A stretch of 34,279 nucleotides of DNA from Planctomycetota bacterium (GTDB lineage: Bacteria > Planctomycetota > Phycisphaerae > Sedimentisphaerales > Anaerobacaceae). Both the position numbers and the translations under genes were made by a program. The stretch is from positions 1-34,279 of the forward strand of contig JACNGQ010000155.1 of the NCBI GenBank assembly GCA_014384025.1. Direction: 5' to 3'. Below are positions 2,383-34,072 of this stretch, one piece after another; positions within the stretch are counted from its first letter, which is position 1, and each line of letters opens with the position of its first letter. The notes under the pieces were generated by a model. It was given only the letters and a program-made list of their open reading frames with translations, had not been told where the DNA came from and searched no databases.

Positions 2383-3162
2383 ATGTATATTATTGGGTCT
2401 AACTACAAGCTATTACGGCATAGATCACTTTCTTTGGCATATAAGGCATCAGGCAGAATACCGCTTTGGTCCATTTGGATCCTGGCCATTGTGCTTTTGG
2501 TGTCTGCCGGCATAACTTACCGTATTTTGGCGTCCAACCTGGAACGCGTTGTTAATAGAACTATAAAGTTACCGGTACCGATGAGTGCGTTCCCATTACA
2601 AATTGGCAACTGGTCAGGAAAAGACCTGCCCATTCCAAATACTACTAAGGAATATATGGAGAAGAACTTTGCGGACGATTATTTCAGCAGACAATATGAT
2701 AATTCTGACACTGGGGCCAGGGTTAACGTTTATGTCGTATATTGCTCGTCCCGGCCGGGAGGTATAGTAGGTCATCGGCCTCAAGTGTGCTATCCCGGAA
2801 ATGGCTGGACACGCGATAGTACTGAAACTGAGCAGTTTATCTCGCGTGCCGGCCAGAAAATACCTTTTCTGATACATCGTTTCCATAAACTGGAGATGAC
2901 CGACCAGGCAGTTGTTTTGAACTTCTATGTCTTAAACGGCAAGCTTACTGCCGACGAAAAGGACTTTTCCGGATTATTTGGGCAAAGGCTCAATATTGCC
3001 GGTGACTTGGCTCAATACGTGGCACAAGTACAGATAAGCTCAGTACAGGAAAAATCCGTCCGAATGATGGCAAAGGATGTAGTAGATTTGATTCTGGATT
3101 ATCTCCCGGACCAGAGCGGTAAAGTCCGTGCGGTTGATGATAACAATCTCTATAGAAGATAG
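2383..3162 (+). CDS. exosortase-associated EpsI-family protein (DUF3485-like)
   Basis: This is a 259-residue protein with one N-terminal membrane segment (about residues 29-48) and a periplasmic domain. The domain contains the EpsI-type features FPLQIGNWSGKDLP (from about residue 70) and HRPQVCYPGNGW with Cys136. In known exosortase systems EpsI accompanies the exosortase, as a separate protein or fused to it, and is linked to exopolysaccharide production; its biochemical role is unsettled. Here it stands alone, some 19 kb upstream of the exosortase domain gene (22045-24042). AGGA near 2367 is a poorly spaced ribosome site for the ATG at 2383. A 325-base gap separates it from the next gene, so it may form its own transcript. 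The family call is firm; the function within the family is not. Confidence 0.85.
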   Translation: MYIIGSNYKLLRHRSLSLAYKASGRIPLWSIWILAIVLLVSAGITYRILASNLERVVNRTIKLPVPMSAFPLQIGNWSGKDLPIPNTTKEYMEKNFADDYFSRQYDNSDTGARVNVYVVYCSSRPGGIVGHRPQVCYPGNGWTRDSTETEQFISRAGQKIPFLIHRFHKLEMTDQAVVLNFYVLNGKLTADEKDFSGLFGQRLNIAGDLAQYVAQVQISSVQEKSVRMMAKDVVDLILDYLPDQSGKVRAVDDNNLYRR

Positions 3163-17738: not shown

Positions 17739-19049
17739 TTGCTCTGGCGTCTTTTCCGTAACCATCAAAGGAAATGTACAGAAGTGAAGCCTGAAACAAT
17801 ATTTGTTACATCTGTTCTTGTCATACTTACGATGACAGTACCTCGGAAGTGGATACTTTTGCCGTTTGTTATGGCGGCCTGCATAGTCCCTCCGGATCAG
17901 CGAATCATTATATTTGATCTGGATTTTACAACCCTTCGATTCTGTATCTTTTTTGCAGTATTGCGTCTTTCTTTGTTCGACGACGTGCGGCGAATTAAAT
18001 GGAATGCCTTTGATAAGCTATTTTTGACCTGGGTTATTGTGGGCGCAGTCGTTTACTGTGTGCAATGGCATAATATGCGTGCTGTTATCTACAAAAGTGG
18101 CGTGCTGTACGATTCTCTGGGACTCTACTGGATATTCAGGATGTCTATCTTCTCCTGGGATGATATTCATCGTGTTGTCAAAATGTTCGCGATTTTTGCG
18201 CTCATCTCTGCACCCCTGATCATCTACGAAAGAGTGACGCTAAATAATCCGTTCGCGCTTTTGGGACGCGTCGCCGGTAACTTTCATGGTGGGCGGATAA
18301 GATGTACAGGTCCTTTTTCGCATTTCATCATGATGGGCTTGTTTTGGGCCAGCCTGGTACCAATATTTGTTTCGTATTTTATGATTCGGCGGTCAAAGTT
18401 ACTTTATGTCTTGGCTTCGTTGAGTGCCTTGGTTTGTGTTATTCTAAGTGCTTCCAGCACCCCGTTAATGACAGTTCTTTCCATAGCTTTCTTTGGAGCA
18501 CTTTGGAAGTATCGCAGCTATGGAAGGACAATCACCCTTGGAATTGGGGCTATGATATTTGCTCTTCATGTTGTTATGGAGGCACCGGTTTGGCATCTCG
18601 TATGTAGAATCAATGTTTATAGTGGGTCAACTGGTTGGCACCGTTTCATTCTTTTTGATCAGTTTGTCAAAAATATCGGGGAATGGTTCTTCTTTGGCTG
18701 TCATGGTGTTGAACATTGGGGTATATACAAAGGCGACATCACAAATCAGTATGTTCTTGAGGGTGTCAGAGGGGGGGCATTAACACTCGTAATATTTATT
18801 ATTCTGGTTGTTCAGGCGGTTTGGATTACCGGGATTTGTTCTATAAAAATTCGAAATCGGGAGAAACGCATTCTTTGCTGGGGATTTTGCGTGTCTATTC
18901 TGGGTCATTGTGTATCTTTTTTTGGGGTCTCCTATTTTGACCAGATTATGTTGTTGTTATACTTTACCCTGGCAATAGTCAGTTTTCTTGAAGGTAAGAA
19001 ACGCCTCAAGTTTGCAACAAAACATCAAACTGCCGTCAAATGTAGTTGA
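17739..19049 (+). CDS. Wzy/O-antigen-ligase-like polytopic membrane protein
   Basis: This 436-residue protein has about ten to twelve hydrophobic segments. A longer extramembrane loop between late helices (around VYSGSTGWHRFILFDQFVKN and NQYVLEGVRGG) is the arrangement seen in Wzy polymerases and O-antigen ligases (Wzy_C family). In a Wzx/Wzy locus it is the natural polymerase candidate, joining repeats on the periplasmic side. The start is uncertain. The TTG at 17739 lies one base after the previous stop. The GTG at 17784 has AAAGGAAA (17767-17774) at good spacing and would give 421 residues. Wzy proteins vary greatly in sequence, so the call rests on topology and context. Confidence 0.72.
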   Translation: MLWRLFRNHQRKCTEVKPETIFVTSVLVILTMTVPRKWILLPFVMAACIVPPDQRIIIFDLDFTTLRFCIFFAVLRLSLFDDVRRIKWNAFDKLFLTWVIVGAVVYCVQWHNMRAVIYKSGVLYDSLGLYWIFRMSIFSWDDIHRVVKMFAIFALISAPLIIYERVTLNNPFALLGRVAGNFHGGRIRCTGPFSHFIMMGLFWASLVPIFVSYFMIRRSKLLYVLASLSALVCVILSASSTPLMTVLSIAFFGALWKYRSYGRTITLGIGAMIFALHVVMEAPVWHLVCRINVYSGSTGWHRFILFDQFVKNIGEWFFFGCHGVEHWGIYKGDITNQYVLEGVRGGALTLVIFIILVVQAVWITGICSIKIRNREKRILCWGFCVSILGHCVSFFGVSYFDQIMLLLYFTLAIVSFLEGKKRLKFATKHQTAVKCS

Positions 19050-20070: not shown

Positions 20071-21235
20071 TAATAAACGAATCGACACTATATGCTTCGG
20101 CAGTGAAGACTGGTGGTACCATAATCGTAGCCACGTCGATATGCAGTTGATGAGGCGGTTTGCCCGGATGGGGACGGCTCTTTATGTCAATTCAATCGTT
20201 ATGCAAAAGCCCAGCCTCAAGAAGAACACGGGGGGTGGAAAGAGTTTTACTCATAAATTGATTCGCAAAACAAAAAGCATACTCCGTGGCTTACGCGAAA
20301 GTGGGGCAGGCTTTTGGGTATATAGTCCATTTGCACTGCCGGTGCATCATATTTCATGGGCTCTGTCTTTGAATGAATTACTTTTAAGAAAACAAATAGA
20401 AAAAATCGTACGAAAGCTGGAAATACACGAGCCGATCATTTTGATTGCCTGTCCAACGGCAAGCGATATAGCTATCAATTTGAAGAAGGCAAAATTGATA
20501 TATCTGAAAACCGATGTGTATGAAGAATTTCCTAACGTTGATATTGAATTAATTAGAAAGCATGACCTGAGATTAAAGGCTGTTGCCGATATGACAATAT
20601 TTGTGAGCAGGGCTTTGTATGATGAGGAATTTGGTCAATGCAAGAAAGCGATTTATCTGGACCATGGTGTTGATTTCCATTTATTTGCATCGGCAGCGCA
20701 GGACCCCTACAAACCCGAAGACATTGCCGAAATACCCAAACCGATAGTAGGATTTTTCGGTGAGATTGCCGACTACACGGTAGATATAGGTCTTATTGAG
20801 AAAGTAATAGATTATTTGCCTGGAAAATCCTTCGTATTTGTTGGTGAAACATCGGCAGATTGTTCCGGCTTAGTTGAGAAAGATAATGTATGGATGCTGG
20901 GTAAGAAGCCATATGAGGAAATTCCACACTATGGTAAATGTTTTGATGTGGCAATCATGCCATGGCGGCAGAACCGGTGGATTAAGTTGTGCAATCCAAT
21001 AAAGCTCAAGGAATATTTAGCATTAGGTAAGCCTGTGGTTAGTACACCTTTTTCTGAATTGCAGGGCTTTCGCGATGTGGTGGACGAAGCAAGAAACCCT
21101 GAAGATTTTGCTGAAAGTATCAAAAGAGCAATATCTGAGAATAACTCTGACCTCATTTCCAAAAGAAAAGATAAAGTAAAGAATGAATCTTGGGACATCA
21201 AAGTAAAATTGGTGCTTGAAGAGTTATATGGCTAA
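20060..21235 (+). CDS. GT-B glycosyltransferase (GT1/GT4-like)
   Basis: This 391-residue protein has a short N-terminal domain (TICFGSEDWWYHNRSH) and a GT-B donor domain: PIVGFFGEIADYTVD, FVFVGETSADCSG, NVWMLGKKPYEEIPHY, and IMPWRQNRWIKLCNPIKLKEYLALGKPVVSTPFSE. This layout matches a group of glycosyltransferases common in exosortase-linked exopolysaccharide loci. It starts within the end of the upstream GT2 gene and its own end overlaps the next gene, indicating coupled translation of three consecutive transferases. Confidence 0.85.
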   Translation: MNGNNKRIDTICFGSEDWWYHNRSHVDMQLMRRFARMGTALYVNSIVMQKPSLKKNTGGGKSFTHKLIRKTKSILRGLRESGAGFWVYSPFALPVHHISWALSLNELLLRKQIEKIVRKLEIHEPIILIACPTASDIAINLKKAKLIYLKTDVYEEFPNVDIELIRKHDLRLKAVADMTIFVSRALYDEEFGQCKKAIYLDHGVDFHLFASAAQDPYKPEDIAEIPKPIVGFFGEIADYTVDIGLIEKVIDYLPGKSFVFVGETSADCSGLVEKDNVWMLGKKPYEEIPHYGKCFDVAIMPWRQNRWIKLCNPIKLKEYLALGKPVVSTPFSELQGFRDVVDEARNPEDFAESIKRAISENNSDLISKRKDKVKNESWDIKVKLVLEELYG

Positions 21236-21977
21236 AACCATTAATATTATTGGCACAAAAATAGATAATATAACTTTGGATGAAGCAGTATCTACTATTC
21301 TTAAATGGATAGACAGCCACGACACTCCGCGATACGTGGTGACTCCAAATGTTGATCACATTGTAAGACTACAACATGATAACGAATTCAGGAACATATA
21401 CCAGAACGCCGATTTAGTATTAGCCGATGGAATGCCTTTATTATGGGCGGCAAAGTTCTTGGGAACTCCTCTTCATGAGAAGGTATCCGGATCAGACTTA
21501 TTCACAAAGTTTTGTGAAACTGCGCCGAGGAATAAGTGTAGATTGTTTTTCTTAGGAGGCAATCCGGGAGATGCACAAAAGGCCAAAGAAGTCCTTGTCC
21601 GGCAGAATCCAGGATTACTCGTTGTAGGTGTTTACTGTCCACCATTTGGTTTTGAAAAAGACGAGCAAGAGAAAAAAAAGATAGTTGAACTAATCAAGGC
21701 AGCCAATCCTGACATACTTTTCGTTGGATTGGGGGCACCGAAACAAGAAAAGTGGATATATGAACACTACCAAAAAATCAAAGTTCCAGTAAGTATAGGC
21801 ATAGGTATAAGCTTTTCATTCGCTGCCGGGACAATAAAACGAGCTCCGGTGTGGATGCAAAAAGCAGGCTTAGAATGGTTTTGGCGTATAATGAAGGAAC
21901 CGAGGCGTCTCTGGAAACGTTACTTTGTCGATGACATGAGGTTTTTTGGGTTAGTTTTAAAGCAAAAGCTTTTATAG
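21228..21977 (+). CDS. WecG/TagA/CpsF-family glycosyltransferase
   Basis: This enzyme of about 249 residues carries the family signatures VVTPNVDHIVRL, ADLVLADGMPLLWAAKFLG, LFFLGGNPGDA, PDILFVGLGAPKQEKWI and RAPVWMQKAGLEWFWRIMKEPRRLWKRY. Members (CAZy GT26) transfer ManNAc or ManNAcA-type residues to lipid-linked acceptors. That fits a locus with WbpB/D/E and a 2-epimerase, making this the leading candidate to add the predicted manno-configured acidic sugar (inference). ATG 21228 is preferred: GAAGAG precedes it and it overlaps the previous stop by 8 bases. An in-frame TTG at 21216 would add four residues. Confidence 0.93.
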   Translation: MAKTINIIGTKIDNITLDEAVSTILKWIDSHDTPRYVVTPNVDHIVRLQHDNEFRNIYQNADLVLADGMPLLWAAKFLGTPLHEKVSGSDLFTKFCETAPRNKCRLFFLGGNPGDAQKAKEVLVRQNPGLLVVGVYCPPFGFEKDEQEKKKIVELIKAANPDILFVGLGAPKQEKWIYEHYQKIKVPVSIGIGISFSFAAGTIKRAPVWMQKAGLEWFWRIMKEPRRLWKRYFVDDMRFFGLVLKQKLL

Positions 21978-22044: not shown

Positions 22045-24042
22045 GTGAGTAGAAATCAGTCAATAAAAGCTATTATACTTGTTGGCAGTCGTGATTTTGG
22101 AAGATGTCCCTTAACATCAAAGCTGCCGACCGCTTTGTGGCCGGTGTTGGGAAAGCCCGTCTTAGAACAACTGCTGACTTCTTTAGCCGACCAGGGTATA
22201 AGGCAGGCAGCAATCTGTTCCAATGGTAACGGCTCACAGCTTGTAAAATTGATTCATGCTGATAACCGTTTAGAGTTGAAGTATTTGGATGAACCGCTGC
22301 CGGCCGGTACGGCTGGTTGTATTCGTGATGCTGCCGGCGTTGAAACAGATGCTCTATATCTTGTATTTTCTGCCGGTATAATATGCCCTCCGGTAATCGA
22401 TGTATTGATAAAGGCCCATCGCGAAGGTCAGTCCGATTTGACTGTGATGTTTAATCCCGTAAATAAAAATAGTAAATTACAGGGAGAACCGGCAGGGATT
22501 TATGTCTGTGAAGCCAGTATCCTTAAACACATCCCCAAGGCAGGTTACTTCGATATTAAGGAAGGCTTGATTCCTGAAATGCTCCGTGCAGGCAAAACTA
22601 TTCATGCAGCAACATTGCCAAATCACGCCGGTAATTTTCGAGACCGTCAGGGATATCTATTCGGCATTGCCAATTATCTGAAAAACAAGCCGAAGCTTAA
22701 TTCGGACTTGAAAGCCTGCAAGGGTGACGATTCACAAGCTGTGTGGATATCAGCAAATGCTAAGGTTGAACCGGAAACGCGAATTTGCGGCCCGACTGTT
22801 GTTATGAATGGTGCTCATATCTCAAGTGGAGCGGTCGTTCTTGGGCCGGCCATACTCGGAAAGAATGTTACTGTCGGCGCCGATAGCGTTGTGGTAAACA
22901 GCGTGCTGTGGGATGGTGCAAAGGTAGGCTCGAACTGCCAAATCCGGCGATGTGTACTCGACCATAACTCGACTTTGCAAGCTAATGCCGTTGTGGAGGA
23001 AAAATCAATACTATTTAAGCAGAAGGGAATACTTGAAAAATTTGCTATTCAGGCCTTAAAAGTTACGCACAATAAGGCAGGTAAAATGCAGCATGAATTA
23101 CAACCACTGTTTCGTAAAATCAATGAAAGATTACCAAATTGGATACAATCTCGCAAAACAAGATTTGTTCACTGGCTTGCGGGTGTTCTGGTTCTACTTG
23201 CATTTCTCTGGTGTTATAAGGCCGGATTTGAAGACCTTTGGAATATATGGCATAGAAGTGATGAGTATTCCAGTGGTTTTTTAGTCCCTTTTCTGGCTGT
23301 CTATATTCTGTGGTCAAGACGTCATGAAATTGCTCAGTGCAGAATCAAACCTGCTGTTTGGGGTTTGCTTGCTTTTATAGCTGCTCAGGCCGCCAGAGTT
23401 TTTGGGCTTTTCAATATGTACAGCTCAGCTGAAAGATTATCCATCGTTTTAACTATCGCTGCCTTGATACTGCTTCTGTTCGGCTGGCAGCTTCTCCAAA
23501 AGGTATCAACAGTATTGTTATTTCTGTGTTTGATGTTGCCCTGGCCCAATCGTGTCCAGGCTGCCGTTACGTTGCCTTTACAGAGTTGGGCAACTTCATC
23601 TGCGGTATTTTGTCTTGAGGTGGTAGGTTACGATGTTATACGGGAAGGTAATGTTATTCATATCGGTGGTATAAAGGTTGCAGTTGCTGAAGCCTGTAAC
23701 GGCCTGAGAATGATCACAGCTTTTTTTGTTATTAGCGGTCTGGTTGCTCTACTTGTAAAACGAGCATGGTGGGAAAAACTGTTGGTTCTGATTTCGAGCC
23801 TGCCTATTGCCTTGTTATGTAACACTATTCGATTAGCAATAACCGCAATGTTTTTCACGATACTCAAAGGGGAGTATTGGGAAAAGTTATTCCACGATTT
23901 TGGCGGATATGCAATGATGCCATTAGCTCTTGCGGCTATGGTTGCTGAGCTTTGGCTTTTGAAAAAACTAACCACACTTCCAGACAAGGAAGAAGCTATA
24001 ATAATCACACGGCAAATGGGCGAAAAATCCCAGGAGCAATAA
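22045..24042 (+). CDS. fusion: degenerate sugar nucleotidyltransferase + LbH + exosortase
   Basis: This is a 665-residue three-part protein. Residues 1-220 resemble a GlmU/mannose-1-phosphate guanylyltransferase-type nucleotidyltransferase (KAIILVGSRDFGRCPLTS), but the usual catalytic PK is PT (KLPTALWPV) and the metal-binding GD is absent (LVFSAGIICPP). Residues about 235-330 are hexapeptide-like left-handed beta-helix repeats (LGKNVTVGADSVVVNS). From about 375 onward comes a polytopic exosortase domain with the catalytic triad C551 (AEACNGLR), R596 (NTIRL) and H617 (FHDFGG). Exosortases cleave sorting-signal proteins at the inner membrane. The start is GTG at 22045 with a weak upstream GGA. 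No stop or frameshift separates the parts, so the fusion is real in this sequence. Confidence 0.88.
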   Translation: MSRNQSIKAIILVGSRDFGRCPLTSKLPTALWPVLGKPVLEQLLTSLADQGIRQAAICSNGNGSQLVKLIHADNRLELKYLDEPLPAGTAGCIRDAAGVETDALYLVFSAGIICPPVIDVLIKAHREGQSDLTVMFNPVNKNSKLQGEPAGIYVCEASILKHIPKAGYFDIKEGLIPEMLRAGKTIHAATLPNHAGNFRDRQGYLFGIANYLKNKPKLNSDLKACKGDDSQAVWISANAKVEPETRICGPTVVMNGAHISSGAVVLGPAILGKNVTVGADSVVVNSVLWDGAKVGSNCQIRRCVLDHNSTLQANAVVEEKSILFKQKGILEKFAIQALKVTHNKAGKMQHELQPLFRKINERLPNWIQSRKTRFVHWLAGVLVLLAFLWCYKAGFEDLWNIWHRSDEYSSGFLVPFLAVYILWSRRHEIAQCRIKPAVWGLLAFIAAQAARVFGLFNMYSSAERLSIVLTIAALILLLFGWQLLQKVSTVLLFLCLMLPWPNRVQAAVTLPLQSWATSSAVFCLEVVGYDVIREGNVIHIGGIKVAVAEACNGLRMITAFFVISGLVALLVKRAWWEKLLVLISSLPIALLCNTIRLAITAMFFTILKGEYWEKLFHDFGGYAMMPLALAAMVAELWLLKKLTTLPDKEEAIIITRQMGEKSQEQ

Positions 24043-24148
24043 CAATACACATGGAACCTGCTTGTGGCGGGCCATTTCAAAAAACATTGCAAAATATTGT
24101 GCTCGAAATCTGATTATTATTACAAATCACAGATGGAGGTATAAAAGA

Positions 24149-26491
24149 ATGAATGATTTAATAAGATATCATGACAATGACCAGGTGATTGAACAAAACA
24201 TTGTTAGCTTTGAATCTCCACCCGAATCTTACGGAGAAAGCACATCAAACTTAATGCTGGGCATACTGCGGCGCTGGCCCATCGTGTTTCTGGTATTCAT
24301 TTTAATAGGCGCGATTGGAATTCCGGCAATATGGTTTCTGGTTGAACCTCTTCACACCGTCGCAGGTGCGATAAAGGTTGAACCTATTCTTGAAAACATC
24401 TTGACAGGCGAAGGAGACAGAGGACTTATATCAAATTATCAAAACTATATGAACACTCAGGCAATCCTAATCACCAGTAACGAAATTGTGCAAGGAGCAG
24501 CAGATTACCTGGTAGATAAAAATCTTTCATTCTTTAGTGGTGAGCCTACTAATCCTGTCATGAAAATTAAACAAAAAATAATGAATACTAGGAAAAGTAC
24601 TGACATTGCAGAAATTTTGAAACAGGCAATATCTGATGAAATTATCACAGTCGCTCCGGTTGATCGTACTGAATTAATAACAATAACTATGAAAAGCTCA
24701 GAGTCGAAAGAAGCTCAACAGATTGTGGATGCTTTTATCCGCTCCTATATGGCTAAGGAAGGAAGAGGCTTAACCCGGGAACAGAACAGAAAACTACAAC
24801 TATTGAATGACGAGAGAAGTAGCCTGGAGAATGCATTAATAACTCATCAGGAACAAATCCGTCTTAAGGCGAAACCATATGGAACCCCTTCCCCTGCTGA
24901 CGGGAATGATATACTGCAACGCCAACGTATTACCTTGTTATACGCCGAACTCGCTAAGTTAGAGTCACGCGAAATTAATCTTAAAACGCAAGTGGAATTA
25001 CTTAAGGAGTTTCCGGAGCAGGGTATAGAGCCTGAAGAAATGATAAGAATTCGAAACGAATATGTAAACTCCAATCCGGCAGTACAGGAATTGACCCGAA
25101 CGATTATTCAACTTGAACGTGACTTGATTATGGCGCAACAGAATTTATCGGTTGAAAATCCGGCTCTTCGACAAAAACAAGAGCTTATAGATGCATTTCA
25201 ATTACGCCTTAAAGATGAACGTGAGGAAGCAGAGAAAGAATTCGATCTGATGGTCTTAAAAGAGGCCATTAACGCCAGCATAGTAAAACGGAGAACTGCA
25301 GAGGCGGAGCTGACACAAACGGAAAAACATAAAGAGCGTTTAAAGAATGAGCTGGCTGATGAAAATATTGTAATGGTTAGAGTTGGCAACACGCAACTGG
25401 AAATTAGGGATTATCAGTATGCATTTGAGCGGGACAAAAAAATGTATGATCAAGTAACTCGTCGAATACAGGAATTGCAAATGGAACAAAAGCGCCCTGC
25501 AAGGATTTATGTTGCTTATTTTGCAGAAATTGGCCCCGGTCTTGATAAGCGTATGAAATACATAATGGCCCTTTTATTCGGAGCACTGGCTTCTGGAGTG
25601 CTGTTGGCTTCCCTGATAAACAAATTGGACTTGCGTTTGCAAAAACCTGATGATGTTAGTAAGAGTATCGGCCTGCGAATAATAGGCACTACTACCAGTT
25701 CACACAATATCAAACCATATCTTCTTCCTGAACAAATAGCCGGAGATTACCAAACCATTCGGACCAATTTAGGATTGATAAATGACGAAGGAATACCACG
25801 GAAATTAGTAGTTACAAGCCCGGGTATGCGGGAGGGTAAGACCACCTTTTCTGTTAATCTGGCGACAAGCATGTCCAGGGCGGGGAAAAAGGTTCTGCTT
25901 ATAGATGGCAACTTAAGAAAACCTGATGTTGCGCAAATGTTGGGTATCCCTGAAGGTTCAAGATATGGGTTGCAGGATGTACTTTTGGGAGAAGAATTTG
26001 ACAACGCAGTTTATACTATGCCTTCAACCGGCCTGGATGTGCTGATTGCCGATTCACAAAGTAGAATAAATGATTACGAACTATTAGCTTCTCCAGGGAC
26101 ACGCCAGTGTATAGATATGCTTAGCCAGTATTACGATCATGTGATTATAGATACTACTCCGATCCTGGCTTTCCCTGATGCACTCATATGGGCTAGGCTT
26201 GGAGATGCGGTTATTTTAGTCAGCTACGCCGGCTACACGACTACGACGGATCTCAAGGAAGCTAAGGATCGGCTGACCAGAATAAATGTAAAAGTATTGG
26301 GTACAGTATTGAGTAACGTCCAGTCTGAGTACAGTTATTTTCGCAGTGATATGAAACGTGATGCACAAAAGGGCAAATCAAGAGGGGGCATCAGGCGAGG
26401 AAAGAGAAAGCCATCTGTTAATATGCAAAGCATGGAAGACAATACGGACGATTCTACAACCACTGAGTTGAATCAGCAAGTCGAAGATTAG
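24149..26491 (+). CDS. Wzc-like chain-length determinant / bacterial tyrosine kinase
   Basis: This 780-residue protein has an N-terminal Wzz-type region with a membrane segment at about residues 45-65 and a long periplasmic coiled-coil region (about 200-440). A second membrane segment lies near 470-490, followed by a CpsD/BY-kinase domain. The kinase shows Walker A MREGKTT (K564), a Walker A' variant LIDGNLRKP (D586) and Walker B VIIDTTPI (D668). The C-terminal tail is basic and has only two close tyrosines (YSYF) instead of the usual Tyr cluster. The ATG at 24149 is chosen because GGAGG (24135-24139) precedes it by 9 bases; the frame extends upstream to a TTG at 24062. It would control polymer length and export, with autophosphorylation possible but limited by the tail. 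Confidence 0.93.
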   Translation: MNDLIRYHDNDQVIEQNIVSFESPPESYGESTSNLMLGILRRWPIVFLVFILIGAIGIPAIWFLVEPLHTVAGAIKVEPILENILTGEGDRGLISNYQNYMNTQAILITSNEIVQGAADYLVDKNLSFFSGEPTNPVMKIKQKIMNTRKSTDIAEILKQAISDEIITVAPVDRTELITITMKSSESKEAQQIVDAFIRSYMAKEGRGLTREQNRKLQLLNDERSSLENALITHQEQIRLKAKPYGTPSPADGNDILQRQRITLLYAELAKLESREINLKTQVELLKEFPEQGIEPEEMIRIRNEYVNSNPAVQELTRTIIQLERDLIMAQQNLSVENPALRQKQELIDAFQLRLKDEREEAEKEFDLMVLKEAINASIVKRRTAEAELTQTEKHKERLKNELADENIVMVRVGNTQLEIRDYQYAFERDKKMYDQVTRRIQELQMEQKRPARIYVAYFAEIGPGLDKRMKYIMALLFGALASGVLLASLINKLDLRLQKPDDVSKSIGLRIIGTTTSSHNIKPYLLPEQIAGDYQTIRTNLGLINDEGIPRKLVVTSPGMREGKTTFSVNLATSMSRAGKKVLLIDGNLRKPDVAQMLGIPEGSRYGLQDVLLGEEFDNAVYTMPSTGLDVLIADSQSRINDYELLASPGTRQCIDMLSQYYDHVIIDTTPILAFPDALIWARLGDAVILVSYAGYTTTTDLKEAKDRLTRINVKVLGTVLSNVQSEYSYFRSDMKRDAQKGKSRGGIRRGKRKPSVNMQSMEDNTDDSTTTELNQQVED

Positions 26492-26527
26492 ATTACTATT
26501 TACGAGGCATTGGTTATTAATCCCCAA

Positions 26528-28183
26528 ATGAACCTGATTATCGTACACGAAAAACAAACAACCACTTCGTACACATCAGACAGCAGTGATAGTTTACTTC
26601 GGTTTGCTCTGGCCAACGAGCCTGTTGCTGGTGTTGTTCTCGATGGCTTAAGCAGATGCTTGCGTTGGAGCCGCAACGGAAAAATCTTTTGCGCCATCCC
26701 GGAAGAATGGAACATTGAAACTCATGTGCCAAGGTTAAAGACAGTGGCTTATGCTGAAAATGTGCCAATCTGCCCGGAGTTTCTGCAAAAGGCTAAGCGA
26801 AGATTTTGGCTTGTTATTTCCAATGCTCAGTTTGCCGCTCATATTGACCACCTACTGCTCAACAAACTGCTGGCTAAAATCCAGGCCGACTTGGTGGCGG
26901 TTAATGTCGAGCCGGACCTGTCGGAAAAACGAGAAAAAATGCGTTTGACAGCTCAGGGTAAAGTAGCAGGTTTTCGTCGGTTATATTATGATTCGACTGA
27001 ACCGGCTCCCATTTTTAATAATTGGCCTCATTATCTATTTATTAAAACCAGCATTTTTGAACAGCTTCTCGTTGATGGTGCTTTACCTCAATCCTTTTCC
27101 ACTCTTATAGAGAACTGCCGATCAAATTCTTTGAAGTCATATGCGGCTAATATAGGGGGGATTGTATTTGATTTAGAGACGCAGGAAGGCTTGCTGAGCT
27201 TTTGCGGGGCCGGAATTTCTAAAATGAGAAATTCTAAATTCGAATTTCATAATTCGAATAAAATATCACAGGATTCAAAATTAATCGGGAAGGTGTTGTT
27301 AGGAAAAAATGTTTGCATCGGTCCAAAGACAACCGTCATTGGCCCAACCATCATCGGAAACAACGTTAAAGTTCAACACGGAGCAGTAATAAACTCATCT
27401 ATCATTGACTCTGAAGTCTCTGTACCCCGGAACAAAGTTGTGCATAACCGAGTTATAAAAGGACCGCAGTATGATTGGAAACAGTTAACTCCCTCGACTA
27501 ACAATAGTGCCGTCTTCAATTCGGCCAGCAAACGGCATATCATTGAGAGTTTCCGCTGCTGGCCAAGATGTTCTTACACCGGCTGCTTCAAGCGAATTAC
27601 TGATTGTTTCGTTGCAATAATAGTGCTAATTCTATTTGCCCCCATAATACCTTTCATTGCCTTAGCGACAAAATTAACTTCACCAGGCCCGGTGTTTTTT
27701 AAGCATAAACGTCAGGGGCGCTATGGGAAAATATTCAACTGTCTAAAGTTTCGGACAATGAAGCTCGGTGCCGATAAGATGCAGGATAAGCTTCGGTTTG
27801 TTAGCCAGGTCGATGGTCCGCAATTCAAGATAGATGATGACCCGCGAATCGGTACTGTCGGCAGATTCCTGCGGGAAACCTATTTAGATGAAATACCTCA
27901 ATTCATCAATGTATTACTTGGCCAAATGAGCATTGTTGGTCCAAGACCTTCTCCTGAATCAGAGAATACATTATGTCCGTTTTGGCGTGATGCGAGATTG
28001 TCTGTTCGCCCGGGGATCACGGGACTATGGCAGGTTTGCAGAACACGTCAGCCAATGAAAGACTTTCAGGAATGGATACATTATGACACTGAATATGTCA
28101 GAAATCTGTCACTATGGTTGGACTTGTGGATATCCTGGAAGACAACAAAAAAACTATTTGAAAACTTCGTCAGCCAATTCTAA
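26528..28183 (+). CDS. fusion: nucleotidyltransferase-like/LbH + initiating sugar-phosphate transferase
   Basis: This is a 551-residue protein. Residues 1 to about 245 are only faintly like a sugar nucleotidyltransferase and lack the GxGxR...PK signature. Residues about 252-310 are LbH hexapeptide repeats (LIGKVLLGKNVCIGPKTTVIGPT). From about 355 onward is a bacterial sugar transferase domain (PF02397 type): one hydrophobic hairpin (CFVAIIVLILFAPIIPFIAL), then KRQGRYGKIFNCLKFRTM, LDEIPQ (D454-E455), MSIVGPRPSPE and RPGITGLWQV. Such PglC/WcaJ-type enzymes put the first sugar phosphate on undecaprenyl phosphate. ATG 26528 is preferred over the TTG at 26510; neither has a well-placed ribosome site. 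The usual WcaJ N-terminal membrane domain is replaced by the LbH module, paralleling the exosortase fusion upstream. Confidence 0.87.
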   Translation: MNLIIVHEKQTTTSYTSDSSDSLLRFALANEPVAGVVLDGLSRCLRWSRNGKIFCAIPEEWNIETHVPRLKTVAYAENVPICPEFLQKAKRRFWLVISNAQFAAHIDHLLLNKLLAKIQADLVAVNVEPDLSEKREKMRLTAQGKVAGFRRLYYDSTEPAPIFNNWPHYLFIKTSIFEQLLVDGALPQSFSTLIENCRSNSLKSYAANIGGIVFDLETQEGLLSFCGAGISKMRNSKFEFHNSNKISQDSKLIGKVLLGKNVCIGPKTTVIGPTIIGNNVKVQHGAVINSSIIDSEVSVPRNKVVHNRVIKGPQYDWKQLTPSTNNSAVFNSASKRHIIESFRCWPRCSYTGCFKRITDCFVAIIVLILFAPIIPFIALATKLTSPGPVFFKHKRQGRYGKIFNCLKFRTMKLGADKMQDKLRFVSQVDGPQFKIDDDPRIGTVGRFLRETYLDEIPQFINVLLGQMSIVGPRPSPESENTLCPFWRDARLSVRPGITGLWQVCRTRQPMKDFQEWIHYDTEYVRNLSLWLDLWISWKTTKKLFENFVSQF

Positions 28184-28203: not shown

Positions 28204-31200
28204 ATGCCAAGAAGATACTTTAACTGGAAACTGGCAATTGTTCTGATAATCAGTATTTGTGTTTTGGGAGTGACGGCCTTTGGACTGCGCCAATGGCAAA
28301 GAACTAACAGGGCTGATCAGGGGCTTATTCTCGGCAATAAGGCATATGACGAACAAAGGTGGGAAGAAGCAGCAGAGAATTTTGGTCGTTATCTTGCGAT
28401 TGAGCAGATTGATGTGCCGATATTACACAAATACGCCGAGGCACAACTTAAAATCAGACCTTCCAAACGCAGTAATATTGCTCAAGCCGAGAATGCTTAT
28501 CGAATTATTCTGAGAGTGGATAAGGATAATTTCAAAGCTGCTATGCAGCTTACTGAATTATATTTATCGAGGTATATGTATAGGCCGGGCGAGGCTGAGT
28601 TAATTGCCTCGAAATATCTCGACAACAATGACGATTCTGATCCTAAGCTTCGTGAGATGTTGGCCCTGGCAATGGCCAGGCAACGAAAGTTCACTGAAGC
28701 CGCAGCGGAATTGAGGGCTATTGTACAAGAGCACCCTGGCCAAATATTAGCCTATGAAATGTTGGGACTGCTAACAGAGCAGCGGCCGGATGATTTTCCT
28801 GATCCTGTACAATGGTTAGACGAAGCTGTAAAGAATAATCCGTCTTCGGCCCTTGCATATATAGTCCGTGCCGGTTTCTATCAAAGCAAAGACAGCGCCA
28901 AAGCTTTAACTGACCTGGAACAGGCTGAAAAGCTGGATTTGTCCGACCCTAATGTGGAGTTGCGCCTTGCTGGCGAATTTATTATTACAAATGACTTGGA
29001 TAAGGCGGAGAAACATCTAATTTCTGTACAAGCGTCCATTCCGACAGACACGCGCGTGTGGGCAAGATGGGCCGAGCTCGCGATGAAATCGAATTCAAAG
29101 GAAAAGATGCAGAAGATAGCCGAGGCCGGCTTAAAGGAGCTTTCTTCTCAACCCTGGGATTTTATGCCCACAGCTACAGAACTGTTTATCCGGTCTGGCC
29201 AACTCGACCGTGCTGCCGAGTATATATCTGAAATGAATCAAAAGGATATTGCACCCATAGAAGTTACATTCCTGGAAGGACGTTTAGCTGCCGAGAGGGG
29301 ACATCTGTTTAAGGCCATTAACTATTGGCAGGAGTCGATGGGATTGGGTAATACGTTCCCACAGGTTCGATTGGCGTTATCATCAGTTCTGTCTCGCGTT
29401 GGTAATACTCAATCAGCACTGCGACAATTACGCGCCCTGGTTTCTGAAAATCCAGATTTTATAACTGGACATCTGGCATTGGCTAAGCTGTTGGCGCAGG
29501 GAAGAAATTGGGCTGAGTCAGCCAGGTATGCTGCAATTGCTAAGCAACTTTCGCCGGAAAATTCAGAAGCTATTTTGCTGGATTTACAAGCTAAGATCCA
29601 ATTGCAGGCATTAAGCTCCGCGGGTAAAAATGTTCAAATGTTTCAGGACATAGAAAAAGAATTGACCGAATTGGAGAAGGCTGTAAATAACCTTCTTGAG
29701 ATCAAACTTTTGAAGTTCCAGCTTGCGCTGCTGCAGAACAATTTCACCGATGCCCAGGCGTTAGTAACTCAATTGAAAAATGACTATCCTTCGCAGATAA
29801 TGACTACTATGGCTGAAGTTGGCTTACTTGTTGCTCAGGACAAAAAAGATGAAGCAATGTTGATATTATTAAAAGCATTGGATGAATTTCCACAGGCTAT
29901 TGAGCCGGTAATATACCTTACAGATTTATTAGACCGGCAAGGTGATAAGGAAAAATGTGAAGAAATTATTAAAGAGGCTTTAGAGCGTATCGACCAGCCT
30001 GTTGCCAAGCGTACATTAGGTCTGCTGCTTAGAGATTTATATATTAAATGGAATCAGAATGACAATGTTTATTCACTTCTTAATACACTTGTACAAGAAC
30101 TGCCCGAAGACATTCTTTTAAAACGACGGCTTTTATTTTGCGAACAAGTTATCGGTGACCCTGAAAGAGCCCAGAAACTCGTTGAAGATATCAAGTCACT
30201 TGAGGGCGAGGAAGGTTGGCAATGGCGATATGAACAAGCAAAAATCTGGTTATTATCCGAAGATTTCGAAGCTCATTATGCGCAAATCGTTTCACTTCTA
30301 CAGAAAAACTTACAGGTAAATCCGAACGACCAGGGAAGTCGGATGCTCTTAGCGGTAGCCTACGATATTTCCGGCGTGCTGCAACTGGCAATTTCAACAT
30401 ACCGTGAAGCACTTAGCCGCTCTCCGGATCACCCTCAGATTGTTGCTGCACTTGTAGCTGCTCTCTACAAAGCAAAGGAAGATGAAGAGGCCCAGCGGCT
30501 TCTGGAACGAGCTTCCCAGCAAACGCCCGATAACCCGCAACTGCAATTGCTAAGCTATCAAAGCTACCTCAGACGCGACGAGTTAGGTTCAGCTTCAGAT
30601 GTGTTAGAGGATTTTCTCAGTAATGACCCCAATAATCAAGCTGCCCGTTTAGCCTTTGCAAAACTCAAGACACAACAAGGTCATTTTGACGAGGCTGAAG
30701 AATTACTGACTAAACTGAAAATCCAGGACCCTAACTCACTGCCGGTAGCTGTTGCACAAATACAGCTTAATATTCGTCAAAACAAACCCGCAGAAACATT
30801 GAAACTTTGTGATGAAATAATAAGCAATCTTGACAACGCAGATGCTTATATGATTCGCGCCGGAACATACTCTTCTTTTGGGCAAAATGATAAGGCAATA
30901 GAAGACTTTGAGCACGCTGCTGCCATCGAACCCAACAACGTTGAGGTTTGGATGGCCAAAAGCGAGTTTTACCGTTTCATAGGCCGGCCGGTTGAAGCGA
31001 TTGCTGATATAAAGTATGCGCTGTCTTTGGCCTCGAGCGATATCCGAATACAAAAACAGGCTATCCGGTTGTTTTTAGAGTCAGGCGACGCGGACAAAGT
31101 TCTTCAGGGAAAGACTATCCTTACTGAAGCTCTAAACTCAAATCCTGATGATAACGACTTGCTTTTATTCGAAGTGGGTGTACTGATTAGCGAAAGAACA

Positions 31201-32382
31201 GCTCCGTCTTTTAACAAAGCGGAACAGCACCTTCGGAAGATAACCGAAGGCCAACCCGAAATCAGCAGGGCTTGGGAGCTTCTTGGAGAAATCTTTTTAA
31301 TACAAGGACAGGCCGAAAAAGCTATGGAAACCGTATTTCGGGGTCTTTCATATACACCAAACGATAAGGAGCTACTATTGTTAAAAGCTCATCTTGAGAA
31401 GAAACGTTCACCGGTACTGGCGATTCCAACTCTCAAGGCGCTGCTTGAAGTGGACCCTAACAATACTAATGCTACATTGAGTCTGGCTGGAATATATATT
31501 AAAGTTAGCGAACCTGAGAAAGCAGTAAATCTTCTCGAAGCACAATTAGCTTCTCGCATCGGTACCCCTGAGGAGAGAATAATAAAAATAGCCCTTGCAG
31601 TAGCATTACACAAGAACGGTGACAAGGCGGATGCGCAAAAGCATTTTGACTCTCTACTTAAATCTGAACCTGATGACCCAGCTCCCTTAGTAAATCAGGT
31701 AGGATTGCTTAGAGATGAACAATTATGGACTCAGCTAAACCAGAAGGTTGCTGAGTGGTATCATAAGCACCCAGAAGATAGTCGTACGCTCATCAATATT
31801 GCCAGAGATCTGATGGCATTTAATGATATCCAATCCAAGACAGCGGCTGAAGATGTACTTCGGATGGTACTGAAAAACGAATCTGATTCTATTGATGCTA
31901 TGACTACCATTGCTACACTATTATATTCCGGCGGTCGTTCTGATGAATCGGTACCACTCTATCAAAAGGTGATACAGCTTCAGTCTAATAATCAAGTTGC
32001 TATTAACAATCTGGCCTGGATATTATGTGAAGATAATGGTAAGCCCCAGGAGGCACTTGAGCTTGCTCAGAAAGGTCTAAAAATATATCCGGACTACATT
32101 GATCTTATCGATACACGTGGTTTTATTTATTACCAAATGGGTGAATACGACAAGGCAGTAGAGGATTTTACGACGTGCACTGAAATGTATCTGAAAGGAA
32201 TGCCGGCGGCTGTTGCTTCACATTTTCGTTTAGCAAAGACTTTTGTAAAACTCGGACAAAATGTAAAAGCTATTAATCATCTGAACCAGGCTTTGAACTT
32301 GGAGAGCCAAATTGGGGGTTTATCAAATTTAGAAATTGATGAGGCTCAACGTTTGCTCAAACAGTTACAGGAGGGCAATTAA
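28204..32382 (+). CDS. giant membrane-anchored TPR protein (PEP-CTERM/EPS-system type)
   Basis: This 1392-residue protein has an N-terminal membrane anchor (about residues 10-28, LAIVLIISICVLGVTAFGL) and then near-continuous TPR-like helical repeats to the end, for example NKAYDEQRWEEAAENFGRYL and GFIYYQMGEYDKAVEDF. A Cys lies in the anchor but not in a lipobox, so it is probably not a lipoprotein. The comparable PrsT-type TPR protein of exosortase loci is usually about 900 residues, so this one is long. A strong ribosome site (AAGGAAAAGGAA) lies directly before the ATG. It may scaffold export or processing machinery in the periplasm (inference). The final codons contain the ribosome site of the next gene. 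Confidence 0.87.
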   Translation: MPRRYFNWKLAIVLIISICVLGVTAFGLRQWQRTNRADQGLILGNKAYDEQRWEEAAENFGRYLAIEQIDVPILHKYAEAQLKIRPSKRSNIAQAENAYRIILRVDKDNFKAAMQLTELYLSRYMYRPGEAELIASKYLDNNDDSDPKLREMLALAMARQRKFTEAAAELRAIVQEHPGQILAYEMLGLLTEQRPDDFPDPVQWLDEAVKNNPSSALAYIVRAGFYQSKDSAKALTDLEQAEKLDLSDPNVELRLAGEFIITNDLDKAEKHLISVQASIPTDTRVWARWAELAMKSNSKEKMQKIAEAGLKELSSQPWDFMPTATELFIRSGQLDRAAEYISEMNQKDIAPIEVTFLEGRLAAERGHLFKAINYWQESMGLGNTFPQVRLALSSVLSRVGNTQSALRQLRALVSENPDFITGHLALAKLLAQGRNWAESARYAAIAKQLSPENSEAILLDLQAKIQLQALSSAGKNVQMFQDIEKELTELEKAVNNLLEIKLLKFQLALLQNNFTDAQALVTQLKNDYPSQIMTTMAEVGLLVAQDKKDEAMLILLKALDEFPQAIEPVIYLTDLLDRQGDKEKCEEIIKEALERIDQPVAKRTLGLLLRDLYIKWNQNDNVYSLLNTLVQELPEDILLKRRLLFCEQVIGDPERAQKLVEDIKSLEGEEGWQWRYEQAKIWLLSEDFEAHYAQIVSLLQKNLQVNPNDQGSRMLLAVAYDISGVLQLAISTYREALSRSPDHPQIVAALVAALYKAKEDEEAQRLLERASQQTPDNPQLQLLSYQSYLRRDELGSASDVLEDFLSNDPNNQAARLAFAKLKTQQGHFDEAEELLTKLKIQDPNSLPVAVAQIQLNIRQNKPAETLKLCDEIISNLDNADAYMIRAGTYSSFGQNDKAIEDFEHAAAIEPNNVEVWMAKSEFYRFIGRPVEAIADIKYALSLASSDIRIQKQAIRLFLESGDADKVLQGKTILTEALNSNPDDNDLLLFEVGVLISERTAPSFNKAEQHLRKITEGQPEISRAWELLGEIFLIQGQAEKAMETVFRGLSYTPNDKELLLLKAHLEKKRSPVLAIPTLKALLEVDPNNTNATLSLAGIYIKVSEPEKAVNLLEAQLASRIGTPEERIIKIALAVALHKNGDKADAQKHFDSLLKSEPDDPAPLVNQVGLLRDEQLWTQLNQKVAEWYHKHPEDSRTLINIARDLMAFNDIQSKTAAEDVLRMVLKNESDSIDAMTTIATLLYSGGRSDESVPLYQKVIQLQSNNQVAINNLAWILCEDNGKPQEALELAQKGLKIYPDYIDLIDTRGFIYYQMGEYDKAVEDFTTCTEMYLKGMPAAVASHFRLAKTFVKLGQNVKAINHLNQALNLESQIGGLSNLEIDEAQRLLKQLQEGN

Positions 32383-32953: not shown

Positions 32954-34072
32954 TCAGCTTCCGGAACACATACTCTCCAGAAACTCTCCGTTTGCAGGAT
33001 ATTTCCTGAGCAGCTTAAACAGGGATTCCATGGCTTCTCGCGGCCCGTAGTTCGACAACACACGCCTGAGCGTGGCCAGACCGCGGCTATAATCCTGACT
33101 GTAGAGCTTGTCTTCCTTTCGTGTACCGCTGGCCGGGATGTTGATTGCGGGAAAGATTCTTGCTTCGGCCAAAGACCGGTCGAGAACTATTTCACTGTTC
33201 CCCGTCCCCTTGAACTCTTCAAATATTAACTGATCCATTCTTGAGCCGGTATTGATAAGACACGTTGCGATAATGGTAACAGAGCCTCCGTTTTCAATAT
33301 TACGTGCCAGTCCGAAGAGACGGCGTGGTACTTCCAGTATGCCTGCTTCTAATCCGCCGCTCATAGTATGACGGCGTGGTTCATTTCGTCGCCGGGGTCG
33401 GTTATTAAATGCTCTTCCAAGACGCGTGAGACTGTCAATTAACAGTACTACCTCACGCCCGCACTCCAGTTCTGATTGTACATGGGCGAGTATCAGCTCG
33501 GCCAGTTCGACGTGTTTTTCCGTACCGTGGTCACTTGTACTGGCCACCACTTCCACGTTCTCAACAGCTCTGCGAAAGTGGGTGACTTCCTCCGGCCGTT
33601 CATCCACCAAAAGCACAATAATACGGCTTTCAGGAGAACATTGGCGAATCGCCTGGATAGATTGTTCCAGGAGAATGGTCTTTCCCGCTTTGGGCGGAGA
33701 GACAATCAGTTGACGTGTACCTTTACCTATTGGGGCGATGAGATCAACTATGCGCATACTTTCTTGACCGCAGCTGCCCAGGTCAAATCGTTCATTCGGA
33801 TCGATTGCTGTCAGATCGGCAAAGCGTGTGCGTTTGAGGAAGGTTTCAGGTTGCATGCCTCCGAGAGATTCGATAGATACTAATCTGAGTCCGCCTTTTT
33901 TCCGTTCGACCAGACCGGTGACGGCGGCTCCTTCAGTAAGGGCAAAGCGTCGATTCAAATCCGGGTGCACCCTTACCTCGGATGGCCCCGAACGATAAGA
34001 ACGGTCGACGGTTCTTACTGCAAACTGTCCTTTATTTATACGCTTCAGTATTCCAGTAATTGTCTTGGTCAT
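32954..34072 (-). CDS. rho: short, divergent transcription termination factor Rho
   Basis: This 372-residue Rho lacks the usual N-terminal helix bundle and starts directly with the cold-shock-like RNA-binding domain (TGILKRINKGQFAVR). Its motor is complete: P-loop PPKAGKT (residues 126-132, K131), DERPEEV (158-164), Walker B LLIDS, FEEFKGTGN and SGTRKEDKL. Compared with E. coli Rho, the primary-site aromatics F62, F64 and Y80 align with Q16, A18 and R34. An Arg-rich stretch (NRPRRRNEPRRH) sits just before the pore Q-loop where E. coli has a shorter neutral one. Rho is a hexameric RNA translocase that ends transcription. GGAAG before the ATG is a fair ribosome site. A second copy elsewhere in the genome cannot be excluded. 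Confidence 0.93.
   Translation of the reverse strand: MTKTITGILKRINKGQFAVRTVDRSYRSGPSEVRVHPDLNRRFALTEGAAVTGLVERKKGGLRLVSIESLGGMQPETFLKRTRFADLTAIDPNERFDLGSCGQESMRIVDLIAPIGKGTRQLIVSPPKAGKTILLEQSIQAIRQCSPESRIIVLLVDERPEEVTHFRRAVENVEVVASTSDHGTEKHVELAELILAHVQSELECGREVVLLIDSLTRLGRAFNNRPRRRNEPRRHTMSGGLEAGILEVPRRLFGLARNIENGGSVTIIATCLINTGSRMDQLIFEEFKGTGNSEIVLDRSLAEARIFPAINIPASGTRKEDKLYSQDYSRGLATLRRVLSNYGPREAMESLFKLLRKYPANGEFLESMCSGS

Follow-up and report, generated by a model that had tools for sequence, protein, structure and literature searches.

Exosortases, membrane enzymes with a presumed role in sorting proteins to the cell surface, have been known among exopolysaccharide (EPS) genes since 2006, and we know of no physical reason for the proximity of the two. 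For EpsH-type exosortases, the described fusion partners are EpsI and, in rare cases, a CAAX-protease-like domain (Haft et al., PMC1569441). Among sugar nucleotidyltransferases (NTs), GMPPA, whose NT domain is dead, retains GDP-mannose binding and has a regulatory effect on its partner (PMC11228364). WbaP, a priming phosphoglycosyl transferase (PGT), carries an N-terminal domain, PF13727, to which a nucleotide-sensing role has been assigned (PMC10942596).

Here, we describe an exosortase that is preceded in the same frame by a degenerate NT domain and a left-handed beta-helix (LbH). It is encoded in a 34,279-nucleotide stretch of Planctomycetota DNA, referred to below as the window, whose features are collected in Table 1. 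The frame is open from end to end. An earlier note on this DNA had read it as one uninterrupted frame joining an NT-like domain, an LbH and a full exosortase with C551, R596 and H617. Pfam and NCBIfam searches recovered the domains in this order, and the three residues are invariant in 68/68 aligned fusions. Specifically, NTP_transferase (PF00483) matched residues 9-141 with an E value of 2e-10 and 41.1 bits against a cut-off of 21.2, a fold-level match above cut-off. Residues 232-332 matched Hexapep above cut-off (E 1.2e-9) and LbH_EIF2B one bit below its own cut-off (E 3.9e-14, 53 bits). The membrane domain matched Exosortase_EpsH (PF09721) over residues 385-639 (E 4.5e-58, 197.1 bits against a cut-off of 25.7) and 8TM_EpsH (TIGR02602) with 152.3 bits against 105.55. 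The named exosortase subtypes among the matches listed were all under cut-off, with 183.7 bits against 400 for XrtD, 172.4 against 425 for XrtW and 148.5 against 208 for XrtA, and XrtB was under cut-off as well. A hydropathy scan, rough enough to miss at least one segment, placed positive charges ahead of the first transmembrane segment, as would suit a cytosolic N-terminus, and the NT-LbH module is predicted to lie on the cytosolic side. AlphaFold predictions had mean pLDDT values of 33 and 31, from alignments of 3 and 2 sequences, and what we say of the NT pocket is therefore drawn from sequence only.

Table 1. Features of the EPS locus in the window.
Feature	Positions	Strand	Basis
EpsI (DUF3485), separate gene in same cluster	2383..3162	+	domain match, gene order
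WecG/TagA/CpsF glycosyltransferase, upstream of fused gene	21216..21977	+	domain match
Fused gene: degenerate NT - LbH - exosortase, 665 aa, GTG start	22045..24042	+	ORF, Pfam, NCBIfam
Degenerate NT domain, ~residues 8-230	22066..22734	+	Pfam and motif alignment
LbH (hexapeptide), residues 232-332	22738..23040	+	Pfam
Variable linker reaching first transmembrane segment	23041..23172	+	dN/dS ~0.5-0.6, above either domain
Exosortase/EpsH membrane domain with conserved C551 (codon 23695-23697), R596 and H617	23173..23964	+	Pfam, NCBIfam, alignment
Wzc/EpsG-type chain-length determinant and tyrosine autokinase, next gene in operon	24062..26491	+	domain match, gene order
Priming PGT: Bac_transf residues 361-550, LbH 249-316, second, more degenerate NT-like N-terminus	26510..28183	+	domain match, profile comparison
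PrsT-like TPR protein of XrtA/PEP-CTERM-type EPS loci, conserved downstream	28204..32382	+	domain match, gene order

Both halves are found in one frame in about 52 of the 89 genomes of the window's family, two of these frames being truncated by the end of a contig. The fusion is not confined to this family: other families of the order have it, and so do a subgroup of the class's family f19 and family f57, which belongs to another Planctomycetota class; close named relatives are Phycisphaerae/Planctomycetota metagenome-assembled genomes (MAGs). Several fusion-bearing assemblies consist of a single contig. A frameshift or an assembly join between the domains, which the earlier note had named as grounds for refutation, is ruled out by contiguous homologues in many independent assemblies of the family, of other families and of another class, one-contig assemblies included. 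When genomes were searched with a module profile, 122 of the 397 sampled across the class were positive, as were 14 of the 392 sampled across the phylum. Outside the fused clades the module is mostly a stand-alone protein of 340-450 aa, and the catalytic motifs are lost there also. The NT-LbH module is a separate Planctomycetota family, found alone or fused. Two loci have unusual architectures. L042 (713-2452) encodes a 580-aa fusion in which no LbH was detected between the NT part and the exosortase, and the same genome holds a stand-alone module, L039. In L152 (G012:C211, 2-4153) no stop codon separates the module, the exosortase and Wzc, which together form an open frame of 1384 aa; the three parts may be fused, or this one MAG may simply lack a stop.

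We next consider the NT half. The signature of the window's NT domain reads VGSRDFGRCPLTSKLPTALWP where active enzymes read GGxGTRxxPLT...PK; PT stands at the PK position, VGSRDFGR at the position of GxGTR, and AG in place of the GD metal motif. The loss of the catalytic lysine and of GD, pointed out in the earlier note for this one protein, extends to the whole family: GxGTR, the PK lysine and the GD metal motif of active sugar nucleotidyltransferases (PF00483) are gone in essentially all 76 aligned modules, the window's included. A lysine at the PK position is present in a single row (L013), where GD is lost too, and position 111 is S, A, N, G or T in at least 71 of the 76 rows. Other positions are kept. 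The GTAG loop, which touches the base in canonical NTs (GlmU/RmlA-type enzymes), is retained at residues 88-91 of the fused protein, and a GYFDIKEGLIP motif lies at residues 167-177. Among the module-specific residues, G88, G91 and D170 are present in 76/76 aligned modules and K172 and H125 in 75/76; A90 and E173 are nearly invariant, and a DFGRC motif is present in most modules. When the window was compared with three close relatives, dN/dS was 0.16-0.20 for the NT domain, 0.11-0.15 for the exosortase and ~0.5-0.6 for the linker; a fourth comparison (L006-L007), noisy and with few substitutions, gave 0.35 for the NT domain. Degenerate throughout, the NT half is nevertheless under purifying selection and has conserved motifs of its own. 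It is apparently a conserved, dead copy of a sugar-activating enzyme.

The surroundings of the module are similarly constant. Among the loci compared, the order is nearly always module (with or without exosortase), Wzc, PGT, TPR protein. Wzc lies nearby in 72/73 exosortase fusions, and a PGT is near in 35/35 of those with more than 5 kb of downstream sequence; for stand-alone modules the PGT is near in 20 of the 21 with enough sequence and Wzc in 21 of 26, all of these counts being descriptive and no test, as they cover loci picked for holding the module, many of them related. A conserved operon order by itself would equally come from shared regulation. The module is not specific to exosortases, and therefore its centre of gravity lies with the PGT operon and not with the exosortase: it belongs to the EPS-initiation machinery. 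Three further observations concern the window and its source genome. A 436-aa ORF at 17739-19049 has no Pfam or NCBIfam match and is conserved near the operon in several relatives. On the minus strand, beside the EPS cluster, 32954-34072 encodes a 372-aa protein, possibly Rho-like, with ATP-synt_ab and weak Rho RNA-binding matches. Finally, the source genome has a second exosortase (L085, G000:C12) of another clade, with Wzc and TPR genes of its own, of a kind that is nearly ubiquitous in the family.

The PGT of the operon has an N-terminus of the same type. CoA_binding_3 (PF13727) had no match at E 0.05 in the neighbouring PGT in any of the 30 family members scanned, including that of the window. 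Instead, the N-terminus of the window's PGT looks NT-like, for example in carrying NGR or NAQ at the site of the NGD of NTs. When profiles of the PGT N-termini beside the module were compared with the exosortase-borne module by hhalign, the two aligned with 99.2-99.3% probability and E ~1e-20, collinearly over residues 75-308 and 75-319, a signal that is mostly carried by the LbH. The NT part alone gave E 0.18 against the PGT N-terminus, which is not significant, and homology in the NT region therefore rests on the LbH, on collinearity and on intermediate sequences. In two such intermediates (L055 and L056) the alignment of the PGT N-terminus extends further into the NT part, and one of them keeps NGD. 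Homology of the PGT N-terminus to the module, as judged from these alignments, is well supported for the LbH and the C-terminal part of the NT domain and likely for the remainder. In six loci (L118-L122 and L149) a full-length dead NT-LbH module is directly fused to the PGT (E 8e-52 to 2e-62), with no separate module gene nearby. The degenerate NT-LbH sits where large PGTs normally have their nucleotide-sensing domain and seems to replace it.

In a tree of the modules, four stand-alone and two split forms fall inside the clade of fusions from the window's order (41 rows, support 100/100). In the stand-alone loci L037-L040 the Wzc frame begins ~20-70 bases after the module, with no exosortase between. 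In G037, G045 and G110, a search at E 1e-40 turned up no close exosortase at other sites. As the stand-alone modules nest in the fused clade and these genomes hold no close exosortase at that threshold, we conclude that about three lineages lost the exosortase and kept the module, Wzc and the PGT, an approximate number read from a tree in which some branches are modestly supported. The exosortase tree suggests two independent exosortase fusions, and a single clade was not rejected (AU p 0.173). Unfused neighbours exist as well: in L136 the module lies directly upstream of an exosortase, and L035 and L036 are split.

We also surveyed potential exosortase substrates. PEP-CTERM proteins occur in 89/89 family genomes, whether the fused exosortase is present or absent, at 1 to 46 per genome. 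By eye, their number showed no link to the fused exosortase across these 89 genomes; for example, there are 20 in G009, which has it, versus 30 in G010, which lacks it, while G026, which has it, and G027, which does not, hold 26 each. A further exosortase is present in nearly all genomes of the family.

On balance, we lean towards a non-catalytic, cytosolic module that serves EPS initiation as a regulatory or scaffold subunit, tethers the exosortase to the Wzc/PGT machinery and perhaps senses a nucleotide sugar. According to this model, the pseudo-NT and LbH would work with the Wzc kinase and the priming PGT at the priming step, and the fusion in the window's lineage would put the exosortase into the same assembly. 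The LbH modules borne by the exosortase and by the PGT could pair, and the retained base loop could sense a nucleotide or nucleotide sugar. The physical assembly, the cytosolic placement and the sensing through the base loop are inferences, for which the nucleotide-sensing role assigned to the WbaP N-terminal domain and the nucleotide-sugar binding of GMPPA are precedents. The earlier note had suggested that the N-terminal part may sense or bind a nucleotide sugar, or trimerise the exosortase, and thereby couple protein sorting to polysaccharide supply. That idea is plausible, and it is now better grounded: the module lies in the EPS machinery, other lineages have it fused to the PGT, and it outlasts the loss of the exosortase.

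The alternatives differ mainly in what the NT fold is taken to do. It may bind no ligand at all, with the module only oligomerising the exosortase or docking it on the PGT/Wzc complex through its LbH. The phosphate- and metal-binding catalytic signatures are indeed lost, and of the links between the operon's two modules the LbH is the best conserved; however, few positions in the family are as strongly conserved as those of the base loop and of GYxDIKE (G88, G91, D170 and K172), and some members, such as L042, have no detectable LbH. We find a pure scaffold rather doubtful. Continued enzyme activity, with altered chemistry or on an unusual substrate, would fit a fold that is under purifying selection and has its own set of conserved motifs, but the arginine of GxGTR, the PK lysine and the GD aspartate have disappeared from essentially all members in several lineages, and this makes residual catalysis very improbable. 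We give least credence to a neutral relic in which operon neighbours merged and the NT part is passenger sequence. Fusion and fission do appear to be easy, given the unfused and split neighbours L136, L035 and L036, yet the NT domain is constrained (dN/dS 0.16-0.20), the fusion has been retained across an order and in a second class, and the module survives the loss of the exosortase.

A different kind of alternative concerns the exosortase itself: the exosortase-like domain of this clade may act on a polymer- or operon-linked substrate instead of PEP-CTERM proteins, with the module regulating something else. The numbers in G009 and G010 and in G026 and G027, which do not track the fused exosortase, and the additional exosortase in nearly all family genomes are in line with such a reading. 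Against it stand the invariant catalytic Cys, Arg and His and the presence of EpsI and the PrsT-like protein in the cluster, and we think it unlikely.

Returning to the tethering subunit that we favour, its fullest form is a tentative proposal, possible in our view though short of probable: an undescribed pseudo-NT-LbH family would sense nucleotide sugar, and paired modules on the exosortase and the priming PGT would join sorting and EPS initiation in one regulated Planctomycetota membrane complex. A module shared by the exosortase in some lineages and by the priming PGT in others is a concrete, testable link between protein sorting and polysaccharide. The earlier note knew of no described NT/LbH-exosortase fusion; likewise, we found none in the domain catalogues and open-licence literature searched, which is weak evidence of absence, and of the papers there that name both exosortase and hexapeptide, none deals with such a fusion by its title or abstract.

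How, then, does the locus compare with described systems? With the EpsH/exosortase family (PF09721, TIGR02602) it shares the C-terminal domain with invariant Cys, Arg and His and an EPS cluster with EpsI and a PrsT-like TPR protein, but the window's protein bears an N-terminal NT-LbH module and falls under the cut-off of the named subtypes listed. The module resembles the NT-LbH of mannose-1-phosphate guanylyltransferases (7whr, GMPPB) in having an NT followed by an LbH, collinear over most of its length; unlike GMPPB, it lacks the catalytic lysine, GxGTR and GD, has DFGRC and GYxDIKE, and is fused to a membrane enzyme. The window's PGT has the same catalytic Bac_transf domain as the large monotopic PGTs WbaP and WcaJ and, like them, an N-terminal accessory domain, but the usual N-terminal four-helix bundle was not recognised, and in place of PF13727 there is a degenerate NT-LbH. 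GMPPA, the dead regulatory paralogue of GMPPB, is likewise a dead NT-LbH protein with a partner and a precedent for nucleotide-sugar binding without catalysis. The conservation of the base loop and the gene neighbourhood suggest that the module may share this trait, binding a nucleotide sugar and acting on a partner enzyme. GMPPA is eukaryotic and soluble and regulates an active NT paralogue, whereas the module here has a PGT, a Wzc kinase and an exosortase as its neighbours. The module adds a widespread bacterial pseudoenzyme family that is comparable in kind to GMPPA.
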